Origin: Diplonema papillatum
Lineage: Eukaryota; Euglenozoa; Diplonemea; Diplonemida; Diplonemidae
Assembly: GCA_030068145.1 (NCBI GenBank)
Contig: JAPJBO010000007.1
Location: 310,001 to 374,000 of the forward strand
DNA length: 64,000 nt
Direction of reading: 5' to 3'
Position 1 is the stretch's first letter. Every line of letters begins with the position of its first letter. The notes under the pieces were generated by a model that ran no database searches, had not been told where the DNA came from, and saw nothing but the letters and a program-made list of their open reading frames with translations. Shown piece after piece: positions 4,256-59,834 of this stretch. Both the position numbers and the translations under genes were made by a program.

Positions 4256-4402
4256 CAGGCCCGGACATGGTTAGCCATAACCCATAACGAAAGCGTGCAC
4301 CAAATATACAACCCGTAACCATATAGCCCTTTCTTGCTCTAAGAGAACCCGGTCACACGGAGACCCTAAAACCCCGGAATCTGAAGCGAACTTTAACTCT
4401 AA
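4256..4402. repeat. Dispersed repeat family B, copy 2
   Basis: It matches 43728-43856 from GGACATGG through AAAACCCCGGAATC, and 871-985 over its second half. Relative to the other two copies it has a small internal deletion after AAGAGAACCC. Confidence 0.7.
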
Positions 4403-5950
4403 AAGGACATAACGTCGCCAGCTGTATGTGGGGTTCGTGAATCATGCCGAAGCCACAAACGAACGGTCAGCACAAGTCGAAGAACCTTGGCGAACATGGC
4501 TAGTATTCCGGTCTACCTGCAGCCCTCTATCACGCACGGTCCGAGTGTCCGTTCGCAGAAACCCTCCATTCACTGCCGAACCTGTCAGGCCTCTCCACGA
4601 AGCTGTTGTACTGGCCTCTCAAGAAGTGTAAGGTTATGAGCCGAACCATAAATACACAGGACGACATACCCCCCACCCACTCCCGCGCCCTACACGCAGA
4701 TAGCAGTCCTCCCCTCCAAAAAAAACACCTGGAACAACGCCAAATAAAGAGGCCCGACGCCCGTACTGCTTGCGACGCACGACACTTGACTCAGGACAGG
4801 ATGCTACACCGCGTCTGAGGCGCGCCGTAGCGAAGAAGACCTTTTTGATTGCGTCCGAGGAGAGCCGCACGACGGTGGGGTTCCCCTCACCATTCCCGAG
4901 AGAACTTCCGAGCTCCTTGTAAGGAAGAGGGAGTGAACAGCTGTGGGGGAAAAGGTTGTTCCATCTTCCTCTTTTTCTCGCCTCTCTCCTCCTCCGGGCA
5001 ATCCCGTACTGAAAAAGCTTCCAGTCGGGCTGTTTGAATCGTCTGCCTGCCCCTTGAACGCCGCCGTTGTCCCTGCTGTCTGGTTCTTCATCCTCGTGGC
5101 TCTCGTCTTCGTTCGCTACACGTTGTTCCACTCTCGCAAGCCACAGTGTGTGGGGGCTCACTAACAGGCCCCAGCACCTTGTCTGCATCCAGCGTGTCAC
5201 TTCACCGAACTGCACGCTGGTTGCAATCTTCTTCCTTCCGAGGACCGCTTTGAGGGCAGGAGAAGCCGAGCAGAAAAAAAGAAAGCCAACACCCCCCGCC
5301 CTCTCCACCCCCCGTACACACGACACACACCCCACCCTGCAAAAGAATTATATAATTTCTTTTTCTCCTTTCCTTTTTGCTCCTCTTACGTACGGGGGGT
5401 GGTGAAAAGTATTTTTGTTCCGGTCTTCCCTGTCTTTCCGTTCATCGGGTTCTCTTGTTTTTTTATTTTTTCTTCTGCAAAAATATAAAGTGGTGGTGGT
5501 AGGAGGGGCGCCTGACCCGCGCCTCCTTTCCCCGTCGGCAATCGCGCCGGGGTTTCGCTTGCACGCCCCGCCCGCCTGCGGGAGGGCGGTGAGGAGGGAC
5601 GCTCAGCCGGCCCCCTTATTCCCCTGGAACTGCATTGAATTGCTTGCTGCCGTGTGTCCCAGTCTAGTCTAGTGTGTACCGCAGGCTAGCACAGGCTACC
5701 ACAGGCTATCAACAGTCTGTCAGCAGGGGGTAGACCCGGCTCAGGGACACGCCCCCCTCCCGGCGTTGGCCCGTGTTTGCCCCCAGTTTCCGCGGGCCTT
5801 CGCGAACGCTCCCGGTTGCTGCCTCCGACACTGGACGGAGGAAGGGGGGGGTGTGGGGGTGACAGAGGGAGTCGATCTCCTGCACTTTCCACGCCCCCCT
5901 CCCCGGCCCCCTGTCGGGTGTCTCCGCGGGCAGCGCCGCGTGACGGGGGA

Positions 5951-40474: not shown

Positions 40475-40593
40475 TAAGTTCCCCAAAGCGGCCATCGTTG
40501 GGGCCAACATCGCGGCGGCTGGGCTGCTCCTGGGGCTCGTGTGTATGGGCAGATCAATCGCTGTCAGTGTCTGGTTGATACTCGGGGCTATAT

Positions 40594-42106
40594 ATATGGT
40601 ACGATGCCAAACCCACCCCCCCCCCCCCCCTTTGCACTAATAAAAAAATTTTTGATGTCACCCCATACTGGTCCCGAAACCCCACTTGTGTGGCCCAAAA
40701 CGGTTCCCAAACGGTTTTTGGCGGGCTGAGTCGAGGTAAAGGGGTCTCTGAAGGCCCACGAATAGGCCCAGGTGGGCCCAGGTGGGCCCCCGAGCGGGCA
40801 CTCAGTGCGAGGGGGGGTGCCCCCAAAATGGGGTCATTTTCAAAGCCTCGCCACTTCTCAAGCTAGTCAAACACCTTCTGGCCTCCAGCGGGAAACCCAG
40901 ACTACACAACGACAAGATCGGCTGTGTTCCGCTGTAGATAGCCACCAGCGGGTCCTCTTGAAGCCGAAGAATGTTCTCAGGGGTCTCAGATAGCCCTACT
41001 TGGCCACCCCGCCTGCAGCGCCTGCGGTGGGCAGGCACACCTTGTAAATAGAGTGGGTGCAGCAGGTGCACCCTGCCTAGAATCCGGCTTTACCAGCAAT
41101 ACGAATTAAGAATACAGGTTGACCCAGGAAAACGGAAACTAAGAGAGGGAAAATGCCAAAGATCACGGGTCTGGAGTTCGTGGAGTCATCGGTGAGAGCA
41201 ATGCAGAAGTTGTCGCCGTTTCATGAGGAAACGAGACGTGGTCAGTCCATGCAGAGACGACTCGTAGCCAGCAGGACCTTTTGCGAAAAGGTCTCTGGTG
41301 AGGACCTGATCGGTTTCTTTCTCGCCCTAATGACAGAGGAGGAGAACGTTGACATCTGGAAGCGCCTTTCTGGTAGGCTTTCAGAAGCCTTCAACAGCCT
41401 TGACGACGAGGCGAGCCGGCGACGCATCGTGAGCGGTTTGGACTGGGCACGTGCCCGGTACAGGGCTGTTGGAATGGTCGTGGGTGACAATCTCTGAAAG
41501 AACCGGGGAAAGGCTGCCGAGATTGGCGTTGGCGGGGGGGCCCACAGTCCTCATCTTGGTTCTTTTGAATTTTTCCACCTTATATTCTGCGTTTTCCTTG
41601 TAAGCACTGTGTTCTCAAAAGCGGGTGAAGCCGGATTCTAGGCAGGGTGCACTTGCATACCACACATTCTGAGCGTGTGCCTGCCCACCGCTGGCGCTGC
41701 ACACATGGGGCTAACTGTGACCCCCGAGAGCATTCTTCGGCTTCAAGAGGACCCGCTGGTGGCTATCTACGGCTGAACACAGCCGATCTTGTCGTTTTGA
41801 AGTCTGGGTTTCCCGCTGGAGGCCAGAAGGTGTTTGACTAGCTTGAATAGTGGCGAGGCCCGAAACTGACCCCATTTTGGGGGGCTCTCCCCCTCGCGCT
41901 GAGTGCCCGCTCCGGGGCCCACCTGGGCCCACCTGGGCCCATTCGTGGACCTTCGGAGACCCCTTTACCTCGACTCAGCCCGTCAAAAACCGTTTGGGAC
42001 CCGTTTTGGGCCACACAGACGGGGGTTCGGGGCCAGTATGGGGTGACGTCAAAAAGATATTTATTAGTGCAAAGGGGGGGGGGGGGGTTTTGGCATCGTC
42101 TCATAT
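40594..42106. mobile_element. 1.5-kb long-TIR element inserted in the CTL paralogue
   Basis: The left end ATATGGTACGATGCCAAACC and the right end (reverse complement ATATGAGACGATGCCAAAAC) open TIRs that stay alignable for about 500 bases each: 40594-41093 and 41627-42106. Both pass through poly-C/poly-G, GGGCCCAGGTGGGCCC, AGATAGCCACCAGCGGGTCC-like sequence and CCTAGAATCCGGCTT. The 530-base core contains one ORF, 41153-41497. Related ends occur alone at 25183-25201 and as a tiny remnant at 52767-52801. No transposase domain is visible. Confidence 0.88.
41153..41497 (+). CDS. Small protein encoded between the TIRs of the 40594-42106 element
   Basis: 114 codons from an ATG preceded by GAGGGAAA; it fills most of the non-repeated core. 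I do not recognise it. It looks protein-like and helical: KVSGEDLIGFFLALMTEEEN, VDIWKRLSGRLSEAFNSLDD and ASRRRIVSGLDWARARYRA are amphipathic, charged segments with no Cys/His cluster and no DDE/D catalytic pattern. No signal peptide or membrane segment. It may be a DNA-binding or accessory factor of the element, or a captured gene; function unknown. Confidence 0.5.
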   Translation: MPKITGLEFVESSVRAMQKLSPFHEETRRGQSMQRRLVASRTFCEKVSGEDLIGFFLALMTEEENVDIWKRLSGRLSEAFNSLDDEASRRRIVSGLDWARARYRAVGMVVGDNL

Positions 42107-43059
42107 CCTCTGCGTGCTCTTCGTGTTCCGCCAACGGATTCCGTTTGCTGCCTCCTGTATGAAGTGCTCAAGTACAGTAGTGATGACATACTGGGGGGTC
42201 ATCGTGAATGCATTCTTCTGGACTGCTGCCCTGGTAGTTTTCGGTGTTTTTTGGTGGTTCTCAATTGGTTCTGACGAAGCCTACGTAGCGTTGTCCAACG
42301 GCGTTTTCATTCTGTTTGTCTTGTTGTTCTTCTGGGGCTTGGAGGTATTCAAGAACATCAACCACGTCACGATGTGCGGGGTGACGGCAGACTGGTTCTT
42401 CTCTTTGGGCGGCCCTGGCACGCCGCCGCACTATGGAGGAGGAGGGTCCAGTAGTTCCCCAACACCCAGCGCGTGCCTGCGGGCAGCAGTTTGGTCATTG
42501 GGGCTCAATCTGCTTCGGGTCTCTGCTGGTTGCAATCCTTCCGACCATTCGGTTCATCGCACAGCAGGCTCGCAGCCGCGGGAACGGGATCGTTGGATGT
42601 ATCGCCATTTTCATTCTTCAGTGCCTTGAAAGGCTCGTTCGATACTTCAACGACTATGCCTACGTCCAGGTCGCTATGTTCGGCAAGTCGTGCCTCACGG
42701 CCGCCAAGGACACGTTTGCGATCATAAAGCAGGGCGGTGGCTGGGACGCTATCATTAACGATAGTCTGATCGACCGTGTGTTCTTCGTGTTCAACCTGCT
42801 GGGAGGCTTGGTGGTGGGCTTCGTCGTCTTCTTCATGGCGGAGCTGAACTGGGCGTGGTTCGTCATCGGTCTCATCGAAGGTTATATTATTATCAGCATC
42901 TTCATGCGTCTTCTGTACTCGGGAGTCCTCACCGTCTTTGTCGGTTTCTGGCACCTTCGCTCAAGTGGCAACACGTGGGACCCGCCAGCTCTCAATGGAG
43001 TGCCTGTAGATGAGTTGAAGACCAAGCTTTCGGACGGCTACAACGGTAATGCGGTCTAA

Positions 43060-44195
43060 AAGAACAACAGCAGTTTAGATCGACCGGCGGGAACGGTCTG
43101 GGTATTTACCGATCTTGCAAGTTGGCCCACCTCAAGTACGAAATGTTACAGGTTGCCGCTGACGCAGGATGAGAGTGCCACCCACCATTCAGCCGGGGGG
43201 CAGAGCCCCTTTCTATTGTTTTTCAGCGTTAGTTGTAGTTCAGCAGGGTTTTCGGTACAGGCAGGTTCCCGGTTTCCAGAACCAGTTTTGACCGATCTCC
43301 GAACTACCGCGGTGAGCAAAAGATGTTGCTCCTCTGCAGCATGTACAAAGAAGAGTGTCACTTACTTGATGCTTCTACATGCAAATAGGGAACCCTATTG
43401 AGAACAGTGTTCCCGTCAGTGTCGCCCGCTCGCTTTTCCATGCGAAAAGACGTCCACGAACACGGGATATATTGGAGGCGACACCAACACGGGCGGGGGA
43501 GGTGGGGAAGCCGAAACGACTGGTTTTTGGAACCGGAAACTGGCCCTTAGGCAATAAAGGACGCAATCATCGACACAACTAGAAATTGAAGCTTCTGTCT
43601 CAGGATTCTGCCAACGTCCAGTTTCTGGCACGGAAACGAAAAGCACCCAGATGAAGTTGAAAACCCGTGGCAGAAGCCCCGCACCAATCCAACCAATCAT
43701 CGCAGGATTAGTCCAACAGAAAGTCCCGGACATGGCTAGCCATAACCCATAACGAAAGCGTGCACCAAATACACAACCCGTAACCATATAGCCCTCTCTT
43801 GCTCTAAGAGAACCCTTTCATGAACGGTCACACGGAGACCCTAAAACCCCGGAATCTCGCGCTGGCCCGGCATCAGTAGCGGTACCCTCTAAGAGGCTCG
43901 AACCCAGCTTTACGGGTCAGGACCGGGAAAACCTGGTGTCGCCGGAAACACAACACGCTGGGATTCGCCCAGGCCGGAAGCGTCAGTGCACTTTACCAGT
44001 GGATCTGACAGCAAAGTTGGAATCATCGGGAATAGATTCTTTAACACGGTCGGCAGATAATCACGATTATTACCTATTATTAGATTTCCGAAATCCGCCC
44101 CCAAATTATTAGATTTTATTAGAAATTATTAGATATTATTACCTGGTTCCTGAAATTATTAGATATTATTACCTGATTATTAGAATTATGAGCCA
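43060..44195. other. Intergenic with repeat B and the start of an AT-rich tract
   Basis: Family B copy 3 lies at 43728-43856 (GGACATGGCTAGCCATAACC to AAAACCCCGGAATC). From about 44050 the sequence becomes AT-rich with repeated ATTATTAGATATTATTACC. No gene recognised. Confidence 0.55.
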
Positions 44196-46090
44196 CATAG
44201 ATGGCCGTTATATAACGTTATATAACGTTATATAACGTTATTCCCGGAGTTATTTGTTACCCCCCCCCTAAATCCAGAAAAACCGTTATTGACCGTTATA
44301 AAACCGTTATTTGCCATTTTTGGTCGAAAAATAACGTTATTTGACCGTTATAACGTTATATAACGTTATATAACGTTATAATAACGGTATAATAACGTTA
44401 TATAACGTTATAATAATGATTTTGGCCCATTTTGGCCGTTTTTACCGATTTGGCCAGGATTGGCCATTTTTGCCATGTTTTTCAAAAATTTGGCTATTTT
44501 TGCCGATTTTTCCAGGTTTTGGTCATTTTTGGCCAGTTTTGCCATGTTTTCCAGACTTTGCCCATTTTGGCCGTTTTTGCCGATTTTTCCAGGGTTTTGG
44601 TCATTTATGCCCTGCCCCTCACCAGAGCTATTCTTGTCTGAGTTTCTTAAACCCGCACAAGCTCGAACAGGCAGTCCGTGCGCGGAAAAAAAAAAAGGTC
44701 GAAAGACACCAATCTGTACACCCATTCGGGATCGTCGGAAACACAAAAACACGTGTACCGCCCCACCCGCTTCGATTTCAGCCACACTAGTCTTTCCAAA
44801 GGGAATATCGACTATGCCTGCGAAAAGCTCCCCGAAGGTCCAGCCGAAGCCGAAGGTTCAACCTAAAGCTCAGCCGAAAGCTCAGCCGAAGACCCCAGGT
44901 ACACAGCGCAAACGGCCTCGCGCCGAAAGTACGGATAGCAACAGCAGCAGCAGCAGCGCCTCGGTTGCAAAGGCGCGACGCGGAAGGAAGAAGGTGGCGG
45001 AAACGCTGCGCGTCGAGGCCTTGTCCCGCGACCTGGCATTGACTGGCCCCAGCGTTCTCCCTGTCACGAAACCACCAAGTAAGAGCCCGGAACAACGATT
45101 CATCGACCGGATCAAGAAAACCGACCCCGGGCTGGCTGGGTTCTACGGGAAGCGCCAGCTGTGACTGCTCGACTTTGCATGTCTCGTGCTCATCATGCAC
45201 CCATATTTGGTACTGGGACCTTGTCTGACTGGCATAGTACGCAACGGTCTGCCGAGTGGACAAGCTTGGACAAGTTGGACTCCAGTGGCCGGATCATGCT
45301 GGTGACATCTGCTGCCTCACGAAGGACACTGCAAACGACCGTTACGGGCCACCGACTGAGGGACACGCGCCGGAAACCCAAAACTGCAGACATCCACATC
45401 CCAAGAACAACATCGCACAGTGAAAGAGTCATGTGAATCCGGAAGGATCGCGTTTGTCGCGCTTGGGTGGAAGTCCGCAAGAAAATAAGTAAAAGAGAAA
45501 AAGCTCTGGGGAGGGGCTATACGGACCCCTGAGGACCGGTTACTACGAATTCTTTTCGGACCAGGGTTTGTTTCCGAACAGTTTTTGTGACCGGGATCCA
45601 AAAATCGGCAAAAGTCTGGAAAAATTGGCAAAAATGGCCGAAATTGACCAAAATCTGGAAAATCGGGAAATCTGGAAAAATCGGAAAAAATGGCCGAAAT
45701 CTGGATAAATCGGCCAGAGTGGCCAAAATCTCAAAATTGTCCAAAATCTTGAAAAATCGGCAAAAATGGCCGAAATCTGGAAAAATCGGCAAAATGGCCA
45801 AAACCTGAAAAAATCGGCAAAAGTCTGGAAAAATTGGCTAAGATTGACCAAAATCTGGCAAAAATGGCCAAAATCGGAAAAAATGGCCGAAATGGACCAA
45901 AATGAGGAAAAAATGACAAAAATCTGGAAACATGGCCAAAATCGGAAAAATTCTAAAAACCGTTATTTGCGTTATTTTTTCCGTTATTTTGCGTTTTCGA
46001 CCGTTATATAACGTTATATAACGTTATATAACGTTATCACCGTTATAACGTTATATAACGTTATATAACGTTATCAACCGGCCATCTATG
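44196..46090. mobile_element. 1.9-kb long-TIR element with TATAACG and GGCCA arrays
   Basis: The ends are CATAGATGGCCG (44196) and its inverse CGGCCATCTATG (46090). Each arm has an outer array of TTATATAACG units (44206-44412; 45960-46075) and an inner array of units like TTTTGGCCATTTTTGCCGAT (44412-44605), present in inverted form on the right (45597-45955). The unique core (44606-45596) includes one ORF at 44814-45164. No transposase domain is visible, and no clear target-site duplication. Confidence 0.8.
44814..45164 (+). CDS. Small basic protein encoded inside the 44196-46090 element
   Basis: 116 codons from the first clear ATG; the frame is open further upstream but that part is array-derived. 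The N-terminal half is a Lys/Pro/Gln repeat (PKVQPKPKVQPKAQPKAQPK) then TPGTQRKRPRAES, a Ser run and KARRGRKK, all strongly basic and nuclear-localisation-like. The C-terminal half is more ordered, with SPEQRFIDRIKKTDPGLAGF and a terminal GKRQL. I do not recognise a family. As in the 40594-42106 element, a single product of about 115 residues sits between long inverted repeats, but the two proteins show no similarity. Confidence 0.45.
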   Translation: MPAKSSPKVQPKPKVQPKAQPKAQPKTPGTQRKRPRAESTDSNSSSSSASVAKARRGRKKVAETLRVEALSRDLALTGPSVLPVTKPPSKSPEQRFIDRIKKTDPGLAGFYGKRQL

Positions 46091-49000
46091 GAGTCGATTC
46101 ACCTATTACCCTGAAAGCGATTATCTCCATTACATTCGATTACGCGTCGATTCCAAACGATTACACTCGATTACGATCGATTACAATCGATCAGCTTTTG
46201 GTGAATTGGGGGGGTACTGTAACAATTGATTAAACACACAGCACTCAGCCAATCCTGATTAGCCGATGCAACGTGTCTATTATCGAGCCTTCTTCTGGGG
46301 CTAAAGATGCTGATAGCACGATCATCGAATATCGAACAAAAAGAAGCATATTCGTCTGAAAAAAGGATGTAGCCAGGCAGTGCAGCAGGGGACGAGGAAG
46401 TTCGGACTGACTTGTGGAAGCAGGTTGTCGAGTGCATAGGGGCTCGGGTACCCGTTTTCCCGTATTAGCAACCTTTGCAATTTAGCGCAGCTAATACTCG
46501 AGCCTTTTGGCATTCCCTGCGGGGCAGTTCCAGGCGATAGGGCAAGCGCTTGGCAGACACCCTGTCCTCGAAGATGTCAAGTTTCTGTTTGTGGGTTCGA
46601 TCTCCCTGGCGACAACAAGGCGGTTGAAAACGGAGGCTAATCTCACCTTTAGGCACTGCAATGTCACGCATGCCATTGTCAGACGCTACCGTCTGGCATT
46701 GCGCAATTCGTGCCATAGTCGTTGGGGGTATTGACAAGGGGGTTCAGTGGACACTCATCTGTTGGCTCCTCGTTACTGCCCACGTAGGTTCCGGGAGGTC
46801 TGCTTGGCTGCACGCGGCTTGTGGTGTTGCTTCGTTCTTGAACTTTTTCTTCGGCTTCATGCGGTTCATCGTCCCGGCCTGCCCCTGGTACACGACTCGT
46901 CTCGTCTCCGTAGCTCGTCTATCCTGCTTCACTTCGTGCTTCCATCGAGCCTACTTGCGCTGTCACATTCCGATGGGTAGTGCGTCTGCGGGAGGAACCT
47001 GCCGTTATTGTGGCTGACACACCCTGTCCCTGCGGCCTTCATCGCTGTCTGCTCTCGTGCGGCCACTGTGGGGCATGATTCCGCCTCGGATCCTCGGTTG
47101 TGCTCCTTAGCTGGATCGCTAGCTCGATAAGAAGAGCTGGTGTGTGGGCACAAGCGAATGTGGTTGCGGTTGCGGGCCGGCCGGCGTGACTGCGAGCAGA
47201 CAGGCTGCATGCGCGTGGGCCCAATCGCGCCATTCACGCGGTACTCCAAAGGCCTAATCGGGCCGGGCCGGCACATACAGATTGCGACCGGGGCCAGCGT
47301 CGCACCTCGGTCTCGTCCCTTACAGCCGGAGCACGTGGCTCTCCCCAAGCCTCTGGGAAGGTGGCGGAGCTGGGAAGACGCGAGAGAAAACCAAAGTAGC
47401 GGCGGCCGACCTCTGTCTGCAAGCACGTCTCTGGCAGGGCAGTCGGCACCAAACGGAGCACAGTACCTCTTCCAAAGCAGTCGGCTGAAGCGGAGCACAG
47501 TCAATGGGCATTCAGAGAGTGCAAAGCATGTCTCTTGTAGGGCAGTGGGCAGCGGGCTTTGAGGGAAAGGTCAGCGCGGTAGCGATGACCAGGAGAACAC
47601 ATACAGATGGGTGGGGAGAGGCCCTGGGACTAAGGCGTGACTACCCCCGTCCCTGTCCCTCCCAGGGCGCCACCCCGAATCTAGCCTGGCTCCACCACGG
47701 TGAAGGCCCACACCTGCGGTTTCCGTCCCTCGTATGCTTGTGCTTGGCACTTCTTGGGCCAGACAGTGGTCAACATGGTCGCTCATGGGCCAGCCAGGGG
47801 TCCACCAGTGGTCGAACCCAAAATACTAGTGTCAATTTCGATCACACTCTACAACGCTCGACTACACTCTACTACACTCTACTACACTCGATTACACTCG
47901 ATTACACTATATTACACTAAGCACCAAACGCGCGCCTGAGCGCGACGATCAAGACGAGCTAAAGAGGCGAAAGCATGACACTTCACGTGCGAAGAGATAA
48001 CCGCGCCGTCGGCGATGCAGATTATCGCCACAGATTCTTTGCATTCTAACCCCAAAATATTACACTCGATTACGCTCGATCAGGGGGTGGGTGAATTGGC
48101 TCAAATTATTACCCATTATTAGATATTATTACCAGGTAATAATCCATTATTACCTGACTTTCCCATGCATTCTCACAGCAAAAGTGCCCCTAGGAGTGGA
48201 AGGTGATCGTCACGGTGGGTGTTCGTGCGTCCAAACCGTTCCTTTCACCCCGTTCGCAATTCCGTTTGTTGCTAAGTCGAAAAGGAAGGATGCCAAAAGA
48301 GGTAGGAGAGGTTTGAGGCAAGATCCTGGCAGAGGACGATGATGTGGCATGTGGGGTATGCGACCTCTACCCGCCAGAACCCGTATTCTTAGGGCAGAAT
48401 GGGGGTCTAACTCCATCTGGGAAACCTTCTTTTGAGCACGAATCCCGTTCGCTGGGCATACAGTCCGTTGCATGTGGCCTTTGATGATCGGCATTCGCTG
48501 GAACCCGACCGAAGCAGACAATAAGATCCTGTGTCATTTCACGTTCATTTGCACGCGGAATGTACGGCCTGCTTGTGATCTTCTGCCGGTTCGGGCTGTC
48601 TTCTGCAAGCACCATAGTCACGTCCTGCCTTTTCACCGCGGCTTACCCACAACCGCTTTGATGAAGTGCTGGGACTTGCGGTGATTCGCACTGCCGGCCT
48701 CGATACGTTCATACCAAAGTGGTACGAAAAGAAAGGGTGCCCAAACGGTGGGACGGTTGGGCTGGGGGAAAGGTCGAGCTATCGCTGGGCGATCAGTACC
48801 ACCGCGAAAGTACCGAGACAGCGAAACTACTGACAGAGCATCTGAGAGCTGGAAGTGCACGGCCAAGCTTTGTGCAAGCATTGCGCTCATTCGTTCGTTT
48901 TTTTTGGGAATCATCGGACCACGACAGAAGGCGCGAACACGCGAGCGAAGAAGGCTTAAATGCTTGAAGTACATTATGGGGCGACATTAATACATACCAT

Positions 49001-54030: not shown

Positions 54031-55862
54031 AGCTAAATGAGAAATTATTAACGCACCACAAGATGAGCATACGAAGTAGGCCAGGCACCAGAAACAAGAA
54101 TCTGCACAAAGTCACCGGGCGTCCATTCTTTAGGGGGTTTTGGATCGCGGTGTATGCTTCTTTTCCGCGCGGTGCTGGCGACTTCGCTCGTCTCTTCGCC
54201 TGTGTTGTCGGGGCTCCGGAATAGTCTGGCCTCATTTGCTTCCGTATCTGCCCCGGGAAGCTCTGTCTTCCGTCCGGCGGGTCGTGGGAGCCGACTATTC
54301 GTTAACCTGCCCTAAAGTCATTTGCTAGAGGTCCTTCCCCCTCTTCGTCTGCTCTTCTCTCGAGCTGTCGGGGCCCTCAGGTCCACCGATCTCATCGGTC
54401 TCATTTTGTCCGCTTCATGGCCGCGGCCCTCGCTCTATCTCTCTCCTTCTCGGGAATGGTAACGGAAACAATGGAAGTATGTTGCGATCGTGATATGGGA
54501 TCGACCCAAATGATGAGTTGCAGGGAAATAAAGCCACTAAAAGTGAACACTATCCAGTTTTGCGTTTTTTTCTGGAGGCCTGCGAGAGAGATCTAGGTTG
54601 TCCCTTTTTGAAGTTGCGGCCACTATGTCAGGGTCGTCGTACTCGTAGTCCTGGAGAGTGTGGTACCTGGTAAAGCATGGGGCTGGGCACAAGGCCACAA
54701 GGCACACCTCGCACCTGTACATGGCAGCCGGGACTTACTTAATTTTGCGCAAACATTTATGTTAGCCAACGGACCGGCAACCGGGAAAGGAAAACAAAAA
54801 AGTGGGAAAAAAAAAACAAACAATCAGCGTCTACAACCGAAAGCCGGGACTTACTTTATTTGCGCAAACATTTATGTTAGCCAATGGACCGGTGAAGGTG
54901 AAAGGCGAGCGACAGGGAAAAAGGAAAAGAAACCACGAGTCTAACCGACAGCCGGGACATACTTTAATTTGTGCAAACATTTATGTTAGCCAATGAGCCG
55001 GCAAACTGGAAAGGCAAGTGAACAAGGAAAAGAAAATCAGAGAGGGAAAAAGAAAAACTCGAGTCTGCAAAACTGTCCTTGGGAAAGCGGAGTCATAGCG
55101 GATGTAGATGCATGCGAATGTGATTCGGCTTCAAAGCAGCTCGAACGGATAATATTGCCACGACGGAAATAGCGAAACGAGCTCTCCCGTAGCGTCGCCA
55201 GAAAGACGACGAATGCGGGAAGGCTCTAGAATAGGCATAACAATAACCCAACCTCGGTTGGAGTGCTTCACCCGGCGAGCTACGAGGGTGTTACCACGTA
55301 TTTTCTATCAGAAAAAGCCAAAAAAACGCGAAAGGACGGTGCTACGGCATGATTCGGCAACCGCTGCTAAACGAACATGACGTGGGCGGCATAGAGAGAG
55401 TACGACAACTCTATGGCACCATAAAGTCCAGAAAAACCATGGTGAAGAAAGAAAACCAAAAATACCGTCATTTAAAGGCATGAAAAGACGCTGAAAGTAA
55501 ATAATGTTGTCGACAACTAAAAGCAAAAGAATAAACCAAAACTACGCATTTCTTTCCGCTGGATGTGACATTTGCATCTCAGCCTGCTGTCCACCTTTTC
55601 GAGACCGTGAAACTTGCTCGAGTCAAACCTGTTCAGACCCCCCGGGGTGCGTGGCGCACAACGCTTCATCGTGGGAGCTTGTTTCGGAGGTGTTCGGGGT
55701 TCAGATACAGGTGTACTTTGGTCTGCTTGGGGGCTGCAGAGTTGGAGGATAAGCATTTCAGTGTCTCTGGAACGTCTGGGACCTTGAATGTGCTCTCCCT
55801 CCCCTTTGCATGCCTTTTGTTCTGCATACACACAACTCTGGCCTAGAATCTTTCCCACCACC
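54031..55862. other. Intergenic with a degenerate tandem repeat
   Basis: Units of about 100-110 bases at 54728-55010 repeat GCCGGGAC.TACTT and GCGCAAACATTTATGTTAGC three times, separated by A/G-rich spacers. ACCAAAACTACGCATTTCTTT at 55535 matches 14247 and 63436. No gene recognised. Confidence 0.5.
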
Positions 55863-56486: not shown

Positions 56487-58025
56487 GGCACTGTCCTGAG
56501 GCAGGTTCAGACAGCCTGTGCCATATCTTTCCAATAAAGCAAACGACGACCACTTTCGATGAGTACTTGGCTTCGAACTTGCTGGCAGGAATAACCTTGT
56601 ATTAAACGACGCATATATGCGTCGTTCGTCCGTATGTGGTTAAGGCCGGATCCCCAAGTGAACTTACTTTCTAAACAGGCCACCGGTCACCACAAACAAG
56701 CTGAACAATCAAACGAAAGTCAAAACCCATCAACCTGTACGCTCGCACACAGTATCGTCGGAAAACCAAAAGCAATTTGTGGCTGGAAGTCGCCGTCGAA
56801 AGTCTGAAATTTGTGGCGATCGGGAAAATCCTACGCCTCGATGCTTCAATTTAGGAAGGGAACCTCGAAGGGGGGAGTACAAAAAGGGGGCAAACGGTGG
56901 GTACCCCTCCAACCTCGCTTTTAGCGACAAGGAGTTCGCTCAGAAACGTAAGGATTCCAACTTGACGCGCCGAAGGCGCTCAAGCAAGCTTGTTCGGTGT
57001 GCAGTCGTCGGTGTCGGCGACCAGTAAAAGTTTTAGGAGTAGTTTAAATGAGAACCAGAACGACGTGCATCGTCGAACACCCCCGAAAGCTTTCTCGCCT
57101 TTTACCAGTAGTAGTAGTGCAGTAGAGAAGATAGGATGGCGTGCATCTTCGAAGCCGGACCAAAGAGACGGTTCTGCGAAACTAGGCATGCGGGCCCGTC
57201 ACCTACTACGGCATGCTGGGCAGGGCTTACCGTGTGGGCAATATCTGAAACCATCAACAAACGTACACCGATCCTCTCTCGCTGCGACTACCGTCATCCT
57301 TAATGCCGAGTGTCACCCAGAGACTCCAGAACCGACCTTTTTCACTCCGAGAATCGTTCGACCTTTTGAGACCTTTCTGAAAAGCGACCCCCTGAGATTC
57401 CTTCTGCCTCCCCTTCTATCACAGCATGCAACGTTGAAGGGCAACAAACCGCTCGCTGTACACAATGGACACCACAACCAGGAAATACAAACTGCGTTTT
57501 GGCTGAGCGTATTTCGACAGGAATTAGTGAGCGTTCACAATTCTACTCACAGGTGTGCGACCTTGCGCGATGTACCCTTTGTTAGGTGGGAGTTGAGATT
57601 CTCCGTTTAGCCGCCATAGGGCGGGTTATTGCCAAAAGGAGGAGAGCCCGCGAAACAACGTGTCAACACACGCCTGCCAGGCGGTCTCGTCCGCCAGTCA
57701 GAACGCCCCCGGCTGCGCCACCATCGGTGCAACAATCATCTTTGACTGGGCCACGGCTCGCTCCGCGCCCACGGCGCAACGACTTGCGCCCGCCGTAGTA
57801 GTACGGGATAGTAGTGGGGCGACCGGATACTCCTCGGAGAGATGGTCCCTGCACTCTAACTCGTCTCTCTCCCTTTGTTTGTGAAAGACTGCCCGGTTCA
57901 GCCAAAAAGGGCTCGTGTTGTGTCCTGCGGGTTTTACCGGAACTTCTTTCGAATACCTTCCGGACATTGGAATAACCCTGGCAGCGAAAGAGAAACAAAA
58001 AGAGGGTGGGAGGGGAACCGAACCA
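56487..58025. other. Region upstream of the CTL gene
   Basis: A 206-codon open frame at 56990-57610 (+) has no recognisable domain and is Ser/Pro-rich; I do not support it as a gene. The phrase GAGAGATGGTCCCTGCACTC at 57836 is shared with kinase intron 4. The CTL promoter presumably lies here. Confidence 0.4.
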
Positions 58026-59834
58026 ATGTACCAGCCGCAGCCGTACTACAATGGGCAGCCAGGGCAAGAAGGGCAGCAGCATCCGGGGGCCGGGTACGCG
58101 CCTCCTCAGTACAATCATGAAGTAGAAGCGAGCGCGCCTTTGGCGCCTGCAGTGTACGGGATCCCTGAAAATGCGGACCAAACGGCGACACAGCAGTTCC
58201 CGAATCCTATGGGGAAGTTTGCGGACATCGGTGTGCTGCGGGACGTCTGGTTTGCGCTTCTGTGGATCATCACCGTGATCGTTGTCATCTCCATCGGCTT
58301 GCACAACATCGCTACGGACAACATCTACTACGAAGCAGACGGCAGCATATATGTTGAGTTCTCAGCCGAGACAAGCTGCTCTCCGGCCACGAACCTAGTC
58401 CGGTTTACGGAAATGGATGAATGCCGGCGGCAGATAGTTAATGGCGTTACTTATTATACGATGGCTTCGTGCGACAATGACAATAACGTGTTCGTCGGCG
58501 CCTTGTTTCTCTACATACACGAGTGCGAGGCTGAGTACGGATCGTTCAAGGACCTGAAGCACAGTGACAAGACGTACAAATTCAGTGACGAAGGCGCGTG
58601 CGTTTGCATACCGAACCAGTTAAACGACTGCGCTCGACTGGTCATGTCTACCTGCAAGAGAGAATCCGGCTCTCTGGGTTCGGACATTCCGAAGTTCGTC
58701 GCCGCAGGATTCATTGTGTCGATCGGTGTCTCGATCGTCATCTTGATCACCCTGCGAAAGTTCCCAAAAGAAGCCATCATCGTGGCCAACATCGTGGTGG
58801 CTGGGCTGTTCCTGGGGCTCGCAGCTCTCTTCCTGAGCATCGCACCCATTGTCAGTCTATTCTACGTCTTGTTCGCGGTATTGATTCTGTTGCTTCTCTA
58901 CTGCGCGCGTGACCGGATTCCGTTTGCTGCCGCGTGCCTGAAGTGCTCGAGTACAGTAGTGTTGACATACTGGGGGGTCATCGTGAACGCGTTCATCTGG
59001 ATCATCGCTCAGGTTTTCTTCGGTGTCATTTGGTTCTACTCGATCGGGTCTGACGAAGCCTACATCGCGTTGTCCACGGGCGTTTTCATCCTGTTTGTCT
59101 TGTTGTTCTACTGGGGTATGGAGGTATTCAAGAACATCAACCACGTCACGATGTGCGGGGTGACCGCAGACTGGTTCTTCTCTCTGGGCGGCCCTGGCAC
59201 GCCGCCGCACTATGGAGGGGGAGGGTCCAGTAGTTCCCCAACACCCAGCGCGTGCCTGCGGGCAGCGGTTTGGTCGTTGGGTTCAATCTGCTTCGGGTCT
59301 CTGCTGGTTGCGATCATTTCGACAATCCGGTTCATCGCGCAGAACGCCGACACGCGCAACGCATTCGTTCAGTGCATCGTCGTTTGCATCCTTCGGTGTC
59401 TTGAAGACCTCCTTCGATACTTCAACGACTATGCCTACGTCCAGGTCGCTATGTTCGGCAAGTCGTACCTCACGGCTGCCATAGACACGTTTGCTATTAT
59501 TAAGCAGGGCGGTGGCTGGGACGCTATCATTAACGATTGTTTGATTGACCGTGTGTACCTCATGTTCAGCCTGCTGGGAGGCTTGTTGGTGGGCTTCATC
59601 GTTTTCTTCATGGCGGAGCTGAACTGGGCGTGGTTCGTCATCGGTCTCATCGAAGGTTTTATTATTATCAGCATCTTCATGCGTCTTCTGTACTCGGGAG
59701 TCCTCACCGTCTTTGTCGGTTTCTGGCACCTTCGCTCAAGTGGCAACGTGTGGAACCCGCCGCCTCTTGGCGGAGCGCCTGTTGATCAACTGAATACTAA
59801 GCTTTCGAACGGCTACAACGGTAATGCGGTCTAA
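58026..59834 (+). CDS. Choline-transporter-like protein (CTL/SLC44 family)
   Basis: 602 codons in one exon. CTL proteins are about 10-TM plasma-membrane or organelle proteins that carry choline or related amines; yeast Pns1 belongs to the family but its substrate is unsettled. The N-terminus (1-65) is cytosolic, Tyr/Gln/Pro-rich. TM1 is about 72-93 (VWFALLWIITVIVVISIGLH), followed by a Cys-rich loop with about nine Cys to residue 215, then a block of TMs (about 222-300) and the family core: GSDEAYIALSTG, FKNINHVTMCGVTADWFF, and FNDYAYVQVAMFGKSYLTAA (about 465-484), the most diagnostic CTL motif. It ends in GYNGNAV. The start is the first ATG; non-ATG in-frame codons lie upstream. A broken paralogue lies 15 kb upstream on the same strand (40475-43059). 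Confidence 0.93.
   Translation: MYQPQPYYNGQPGQEGQQHPGAGYAPPQYNHEVEASAPLAPAVYGIPENADQTATQQFPNPMGKFADIGVLRDVWFALLWIITVIVVISIGLHNIATDNIYYEADGSIYVEFSAETSCSPATNLVRFTEMDECRRQIVNGVTYYTMASCDNDNNVFVGALFLYIHECEAEYGSFKDLKHSDKTYKFSDEGACVCIPNQLNDCARLVMSTCKRESGSLGSDIPKFVAAGFIVSIGVSIVILITLRKFPKEAIIVANIVVAGLFLGLAALFLSIAPIVSLFYVLFAVLILLLLYCARDRIPFAAACLKCSSTVVLTYWGVIVNAFIWIIAQVFFGVIWFYSIGSDEAYIALSTGVFILFVLLFYWGMEVFKNINHVTMCGVTADWFFSLGGPGTPPHYGGGGSSSSPTPSACLRAAVWSLGSICFGSLLVAIISTIRFIAQNADTRNAFVQCIVVCILRCLEDLLRYFNDYAYVQVAMFGKSYLTAAIDTFAIIKQGGGWDAIINDCLIDRVYLMFSLLGGLLVGFIVFFMAELNWAWFVIGLIEGFIIISIFMRLLYSGVLTVFVGFWHLRSSGNVWNPPPLGGAPVDQLNTKLSNGYNGNAV

Follow-up and report, generated by a model that had tools for sequence, protein, structure and literature searches.

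The catalytic DDE of hAT transposases lies in an RNase H fold that carries an inserted helical domain, and the end consensus of hAT elements is YARNG. In the account given in PMC12730594, the usual hAT target duplication is 8 bp, with hAT5, hAT6 and hAT7 named as exceptions, and elements with 6-bp duplications are assigned to hAT6, for which Kapitonov and Jurka (2007, Repbase Reports) are cited. Internal deletion derivatives of maize Ac are described as Ds-del elements (PMC3260210). Short derivatives can also be found in the Drosophila P element, where KP and Har-P are described as being mobilised by the full-length transposase (PMC12393704, PMC6917496) and KP makes a protein that may repress (PMC12393704). 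Here we compare with these systems an element found in a 64,000-nt stretch of the Diplonema papillatum genome (GCA_030068145.1, contig JAPJBO010000007.1, positions 310,001 to 374,000; hereafter the window). This element is very probably a Ds-like non-autonomous member of a hAT transposon family, with 6-bp target duplications and one internal deletion, that would have spread via transposase made elsewhere.

The original prediction described a bounded element in which nested, mirrored arrays enclose a single 116-codon ORF, and this layout is borne out. Both ends can be placed to the base (left, CATAGATGGCCG; right, CGGCCATCTATG; Table 1), and the mirror symmetry passes a shuffle test: the left side (44331-44611) and the inverted right side agree in 224 of 312 alignment columns with a score of 86.5, against a mean of 13.0 and a maximum of 25 in 100 shuffles. 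The outer array consists of 11 GTTATATAAC units, six on the left and five on the right, with period 10 as the top autocorrelation on both sides (z 5.4 and 6.4; all array z scores are measured against 300 first-order Markov shuffles). The left inner array peaks at 39, 10 and 9 (z 5.7, 5.6 and 5.4) and the right one at 10 and 9 (z 6.4 each), the shared peaks at 10 and 9 indicating a unit of about 9.7 bp. Since the left inner array is T-rich and the right one A-rich, the pair is mirrored, as predicted, but GGCCA, which had been put forward as the inner unit, is, with its complement TGGCC, only the recurring core of a looser one. The window copy is without about 208 bp of the left array at about position 44417; among copies with the same deletion junction and both ends, 25 of 30 measure 2,067-2,170 bp.

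Table 1. Features of the element and its target site, in window coordinates.
Feature	Coordinates	Strand	Remarks
Left target site duplication GAGCCA	44190..44195	.	Unoccupied paralogous site; 6-bp family duplications
Whole non-autonomous element	44196..46090	+	1,895 bp
Left terminus and outer array	44196..44416	+	Palindromic GTTATATAAC units, period 10
Left inner array	44420..44612	+	TTTTGGCCATTTTTGCC-like unit, about 9-10 bp
116-codon ORF, N-terminal transposase fragment	44814..45164	+	Coding 44814-45161, then stop
Internal-deletion junction	45144..45147	+	4-bp overlap CTAC
DNA from the full-length element's 3' non-coding region	45148..45597	+	91.4% identity to full-length copy over 431 columns
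Right inner array	45598..45950	-	Inverted relative to left inner array
Right outer array and right terminus	45960..46090	-	Array analysis
Right target site duplication GAGTCG	46091..46096	.	Two transitions from GAGCCA

Both ends were found in 38 of 52 fetched copies, a copy being counted as two-ended when its end motifs carry at most three mismatches, and the target duplication is an exact 6 bp in 34 of these 38 rather than the 8 bp typical of hAT. Exceptions include C493 (five of six bases), L021 (one base out of register) and the window copy itself (L032; four of six), and the flanks of L033 (G000:C279) repeat as 8 bp (ttagtact), the usual hAT length. Sites without the element can be used to read the target directly. 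Two paralogous sites (L077 and L078) read GAGCCAATTCACC uninterrupted where the window reads GAGCCA, the element and then GAGTCGATTCACC; judged by this comparison, GAGCCA is most likely the original target of the window copy, its right duplication having later mutated by two transitions. For another copy, L031, the target is present without the element in the window itself (55406-55556, 100% over 151 bp). Among the sequences compared, further unoccupied paralogous sites include at least L011/L065 (98%), L024/L019 (98%) and L058 paired with the window, the L058 target matching positions 43744-43858, 870-984 and 4279-4404 at 89-97% identity. These unoccupied sites support insertion, and the window element is real, sharply bounded and recently active.

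Several of the flanks are themselves repetitive. The three window segments that match the L058 target constitute a further repeat, and the L016 flank, by eye, resembles the repeat at 55406-55556. The left flank of the window element (44080-44189) is an AT-rich, ATTATTAGA-type high-copy repeat that ends 6 bp left of the element and occurs in at least 36 other places at 98-99% identity among 40 scored of 1034 candidates, with at most six per contig.

The small ORF is best understood through its longer relatives. Four loci of this genome have the matching frame open over 832 codons, which gives from the same start a 793-aa ORF that is 100% identical as protein at all four and whose N-terminus is 95% identical to the window ORF. 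Residues 690-767 match the hAT dimerisation domain PF05699 (E 7.1e-10, 39 bits, cut-off 21.4), and no other Pfam family scored above cut-off in this ORF. A search of solved structures with the 793-aa protein returned four weak matches (E 0.077-0.094), all lying over the dimerisation part; two carry the name Hermes transposase and two the name transposase. The N-terminus is basic and of low complexity, and residues 146-171 carry a BED-like Cx2C-x17-Hx3H pattern, for which a Pfam zinc-finger match is absent up to E 10 but whose spacing fits the Cx2CxnHx3-5(H/C) form given in PMC4890040. Two of the four loci are complete elements: C277 measures 5,203 bp with an exact AAATGA duplication on both sides, and C493 measures 5,194 bp. 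In the other two (C203 and C2040) the left end is present and the right end is unrecognisable in the DNA fetched.

Codon ratios for the transposase are mixed, as they differ between the two divergent copies used. Against L081 the ratio is 0.26 for 161 codons, with one tblastn segment below 65% identity dropped; against L080, a frameshifted copy that aligns with many gaps, it is 0.74 for 527 codons and 0.76 for 97 codons of the N-terminus. A viral origin was also considered; a single scan of viral_contigs with the 793-aa protein, which reaches close relatives only, gave no match. Subterminal repeats at both ends are a hAT feature, represented here by the nested arrays on either side. The termini do not fit YARNG.

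Comparison with a full-length copy (L039) shows how the window element arose. The first matching block between the two sequences ends at element base 952 and the second begins at base 949, with CTAC common to both sides, so that 3,119 bp are missing relative to L039, from after codon 118 of the 793-aa ORF to about 1.1 kb past its stop. The window ORF accordingly consists of 111 codons homologous to residues 1-118, followed by GKRQL and a stop read from former 3' non-coding DNA. A single 3.1-kb internal deletion thus accounts for the window element. Genome-wide, there are 146 occurrences of the exact deletion junction and 14 of the undeleted sequence in that place; among the 52 ORF-bearing copies, picked by ORF match and not at random, 37 have the exact junction and 13 are undeleted, the others being L052 and L055. 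In eight further copies the match covers the first 150, 161, 201, 209, 314, 393, 394 or 480 transposase residues. The distance from start codon to right end is 0.7-2.3 kb in seven of the eight, compared with 4.4 kb in C277, and these seven must therefore also have lost DNA; in the eighth, C47, the right end was not seen. Because the lengths of these derivatives vary, the 116-codon size reflects one event that spread and not a rule.

The terminus can be used to survey the family independently of the ORF. The terminal 20-mer has 253 exact matches in the 271-Mb genome, while its backwards control has none, and all 150 candidates scored (of 235) match the window ORF at 94-100% identity and with no internal stops, at least 53 of these matches being 100% identical across all 116 residues. 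The element is therefore not single-copy and its ORF is conserved, in agreement with the original prediction, and the arrays show no sign of being an assembly artefact. When loci were picked by terminus (L001-L007, the window's own excluded), five of seven had the ORF, as an intact 112- or 116-codon frame. Among the first 100 of the 253 termini, the exact junction lies within 1.6 kb in 46, a full-length-type sequence in 5 and neither in 49; within 4 kb the figures are 51, 5 and 44.

Six of the 49 termini with neither junction were inspected. One (L001, G000:C2:204698-207717) belongs to a different hAT family with the same 20-nt terminus and a 442-codon open frame matching PF05699 (E 3.2e-7). 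Another (L086, G000:C15:406150-407650) is a 99-bp relative in which the ORF is absent and only the two ends and outer array are present, flanked by five of six duplication bases; it is a candidate minimal mobile unit. L085 contains rearranged parts of both the full-length element and the flanking DNA of that element. The interiors of L006, L084 and L087 are different again, and L087 has inner-array-like sequence in its interior. With such interiors behind one terminus, it is clear that the terminus is common to more than one hAT family and to derivatives without the ORF.

How does this family compare with the described systems? It resembles hAT6 in combining a hAT transposase with 6-bp duplications, and is a new family of a known kind, hAT6-like by description (transposase and duplication length). 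Among the titles and abstracts listed in literature searches on 6-bp hAT elements, subterminal repeats, deletion derivatives and truncated transposases, none describes it. The likeness to Ds-del of maize Ac/Ds is that of an internal deletion derivative of an autonomous hAT: one internal deletion, retained ends and an autonomous-type, putatively active element in the same genome. However, Ac/Ds is described with 8-bp duplications and an 11-bp TIR (PMC3260210), whereas the window family has 6-bp duplications and mirrored arrays hundreds of bp long, with a single derivative present at no fewer than 146 copies. Unusual here are nested arrays of such length and phasing, together with the predominance of a single deletion derivative. 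KP and Har-P offer a putative likeness, as short derivatives mobilised by the transposase of a full-length element, but they belong to another superfamily, and the window peptide is without the DNA-binding domain that KP-type repressors require.

A history of the following kind would fit these comparisons. The source is a full-length element of about 5.2 kb encoding the 793-aa transposase, one copy of which lost about 3.1 kb internally, between two CTAC tetranucleotides, while its two ends, its nested arrays on either side and the beginning of the ORF were retained. The shortened element could then have reached its present copy number, at least 146, by cut-and-paste with transposase supplied in trans. 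Transposase most likely binds to the mirrored arrays, at sites that follow one another at about one helical turn; this putative role is suggested by the description of hAT transposases as binding terminal and subterminal repeats through an N-terminal finger (PMC4890040).

The ORF itself (116 codons, pI 11.3, no Pfam match) is most likely a passive transposase fragment, cut before the putative zinc finger, and no gene of its own, as it is the front end of the 793-aa ORF truncated by the deletion. The original prediction had presented it as a small basic protein specific to the element; it corresponds instead to about the first seventh of a hAT transposase after internal deletion. Its product lacks zinc finger, catalytic core and dimerisation domain. 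Single-sequence AlphaFold prediction was of low confidence (mean pLDDT 67.7, pTM 0.22), placing helices at residues 52-76, 92-103 and 105-112 and no helix or strand in residues 1-51.

Nevertheless, a truncated protein can be retained for a function, and the N-terminal peptide might regulate the full-length transposase as a repressor or helper, with derivatives that make it being favoured as in KP elements. Start codon and frame are intact, without internal stops in any of the 150 scored matches, and the basic clusters are retained. Relative to the full-length copy, the ORF is also less diverged (6 changes in 333 aligned bases, with two in-frame gaps in repeat stretches) than the 5' non-coding flank (8 changes in 176 bases, two gaps) and the 3' non-coding flank (28 mismatches in 431 columns, six gaps). 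This lower rate is at odds with all parts having drifted equally, but the kinds of change point to no protein-level constraint: four alter amino acids and two are silent, approximately the expectation under drift and no evidence either way on selection for the protein. Intact copies are little informative because they are very young, and those compared (L009-L038) are the best ORF matches and not a random sample. KP-type repressors are described as requiring their DNA-binding domain (PMC12393704); here the cut falls after residue 118, ahead of the finger-like motif at 146-171. The peptide is given no confident fold, and the 99-bp relative, though without the ORF, still has both ends and most of a target duplication. 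A regulatory peptide is thus very unlikely, in spite of the unrelated neighbouring family having likewise amplified an N-terminal-only derivative.

That neighbour, at 40590-42109 (40594-42106 in the original prediction), is a high-copy long-TIR element of an unrelated family with a 114-codon ORF. It had been described as similar in layout and unrelated in sequence, which agrees with our comparison: the two small ORFs give no BLASTP alignment at E<=100, and alignments between the two long ORFs are only short chance or low-complexity stretches. All 150 candidates scored for the neighbour's 114-aa ORF (of 494) gave a match, in some cases containing one stop. At least 16 of the matches lie inside a 641-codon open frame, corresponding to a 625-aa ORF in L075 and L076 for which no Pfam family scored above cut-off. 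Relative to this longer form, the window copy of the neighbour has a TGG-to-TGA change at codon 115 and has lost the sequence between about codon 131 and a point shortly after the stop, the TGA form being present in 180 copies versus 58 for TGG. A structure prediction of its small ORF is likewise of low confidence. By way of description, the long ORF of the neighbour contains DSGRHF and GHGK stretches, and ATAT flanks the element on both sides in ten two-ended loci (L060-L068, L070).

The two elements had been proposed to follow a shared strategy. What stands is that each small ORF is the N-terminal part of a longer ORF in the same genome; what does not is a common route, as the truncations differ, with a deletion junction in one and a stop plus deletion in the other. 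Because of this difference, and because other derivatives within this hAT family match 150-480 N-terminal residues, about 115 codons is no conserved size, and N-terminal fragments in both families are a common outcome of internal deletion. Selection could alternatively have led each of the two unrelated families to amplify a derivative of about 115 N-terminal residues, as a convergent, self-made regulator without a DNA-binding finger. This seems quite improbable; if it were true, the N-terminal peptides might act by binding a partner common to the full transposase.

Classification outside hAT should also be considered, as the Dada superfamily is associated with 6-bp target site duplications. 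IS3EU elements are described with 6-bp duplications and TIRs of more than 30 bp ending TAYGG..CCRTA (PMC12730594), loosely like ATAGATGG. An assignment to either of these superfamilies is nonetheless highly improbable: PF05699 is the sole Pfam family above cut-off in the long ORF, the weak structure matches over the dimerisation part bear transposase names, including that of Hermes, and the second family with the same terminus also matches PF05699. Finally, the first reading of the locus was of a self-standing element, unrelated to transposase, that has a small gene and a strategy of its own. It fits the one ORF seen between arrays in the window, which has no Pfam match, but is refuted by that ORF being the start of the 793-aa hAT ORF with the same flanks and ends.

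As a non-autonomous hAT derivative, the window element belongs to a young and nearly complete hAT system within one genome, which comprises intact full-length ORFs, a dominant derivative, other deletions, the 99-bp relative and unoccupied sites. Such a system is a good case in which to ask how far non-autonomous copies can outnumber their source, and whether long phased arrays serve as platforms for transposase binding. For annotation, a lone small ORF within long inverted repeats should be compared with longer ORFs genome-wide before it is called a gene.

Other observations concern gene content, which includes PF03619 and PF04515 and, like the 271-Mb size, marks the genome as eukaryotic; a photosynthetic host was considered and rejected, PF00504 having no match in the genome. 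A choline-transporter-like frame matching the second half of the PF04515 profile lies near the neighbouring element (42433-43056), and a more complete choline-transporter-like frame (PF04515) is found at 57915-59831.
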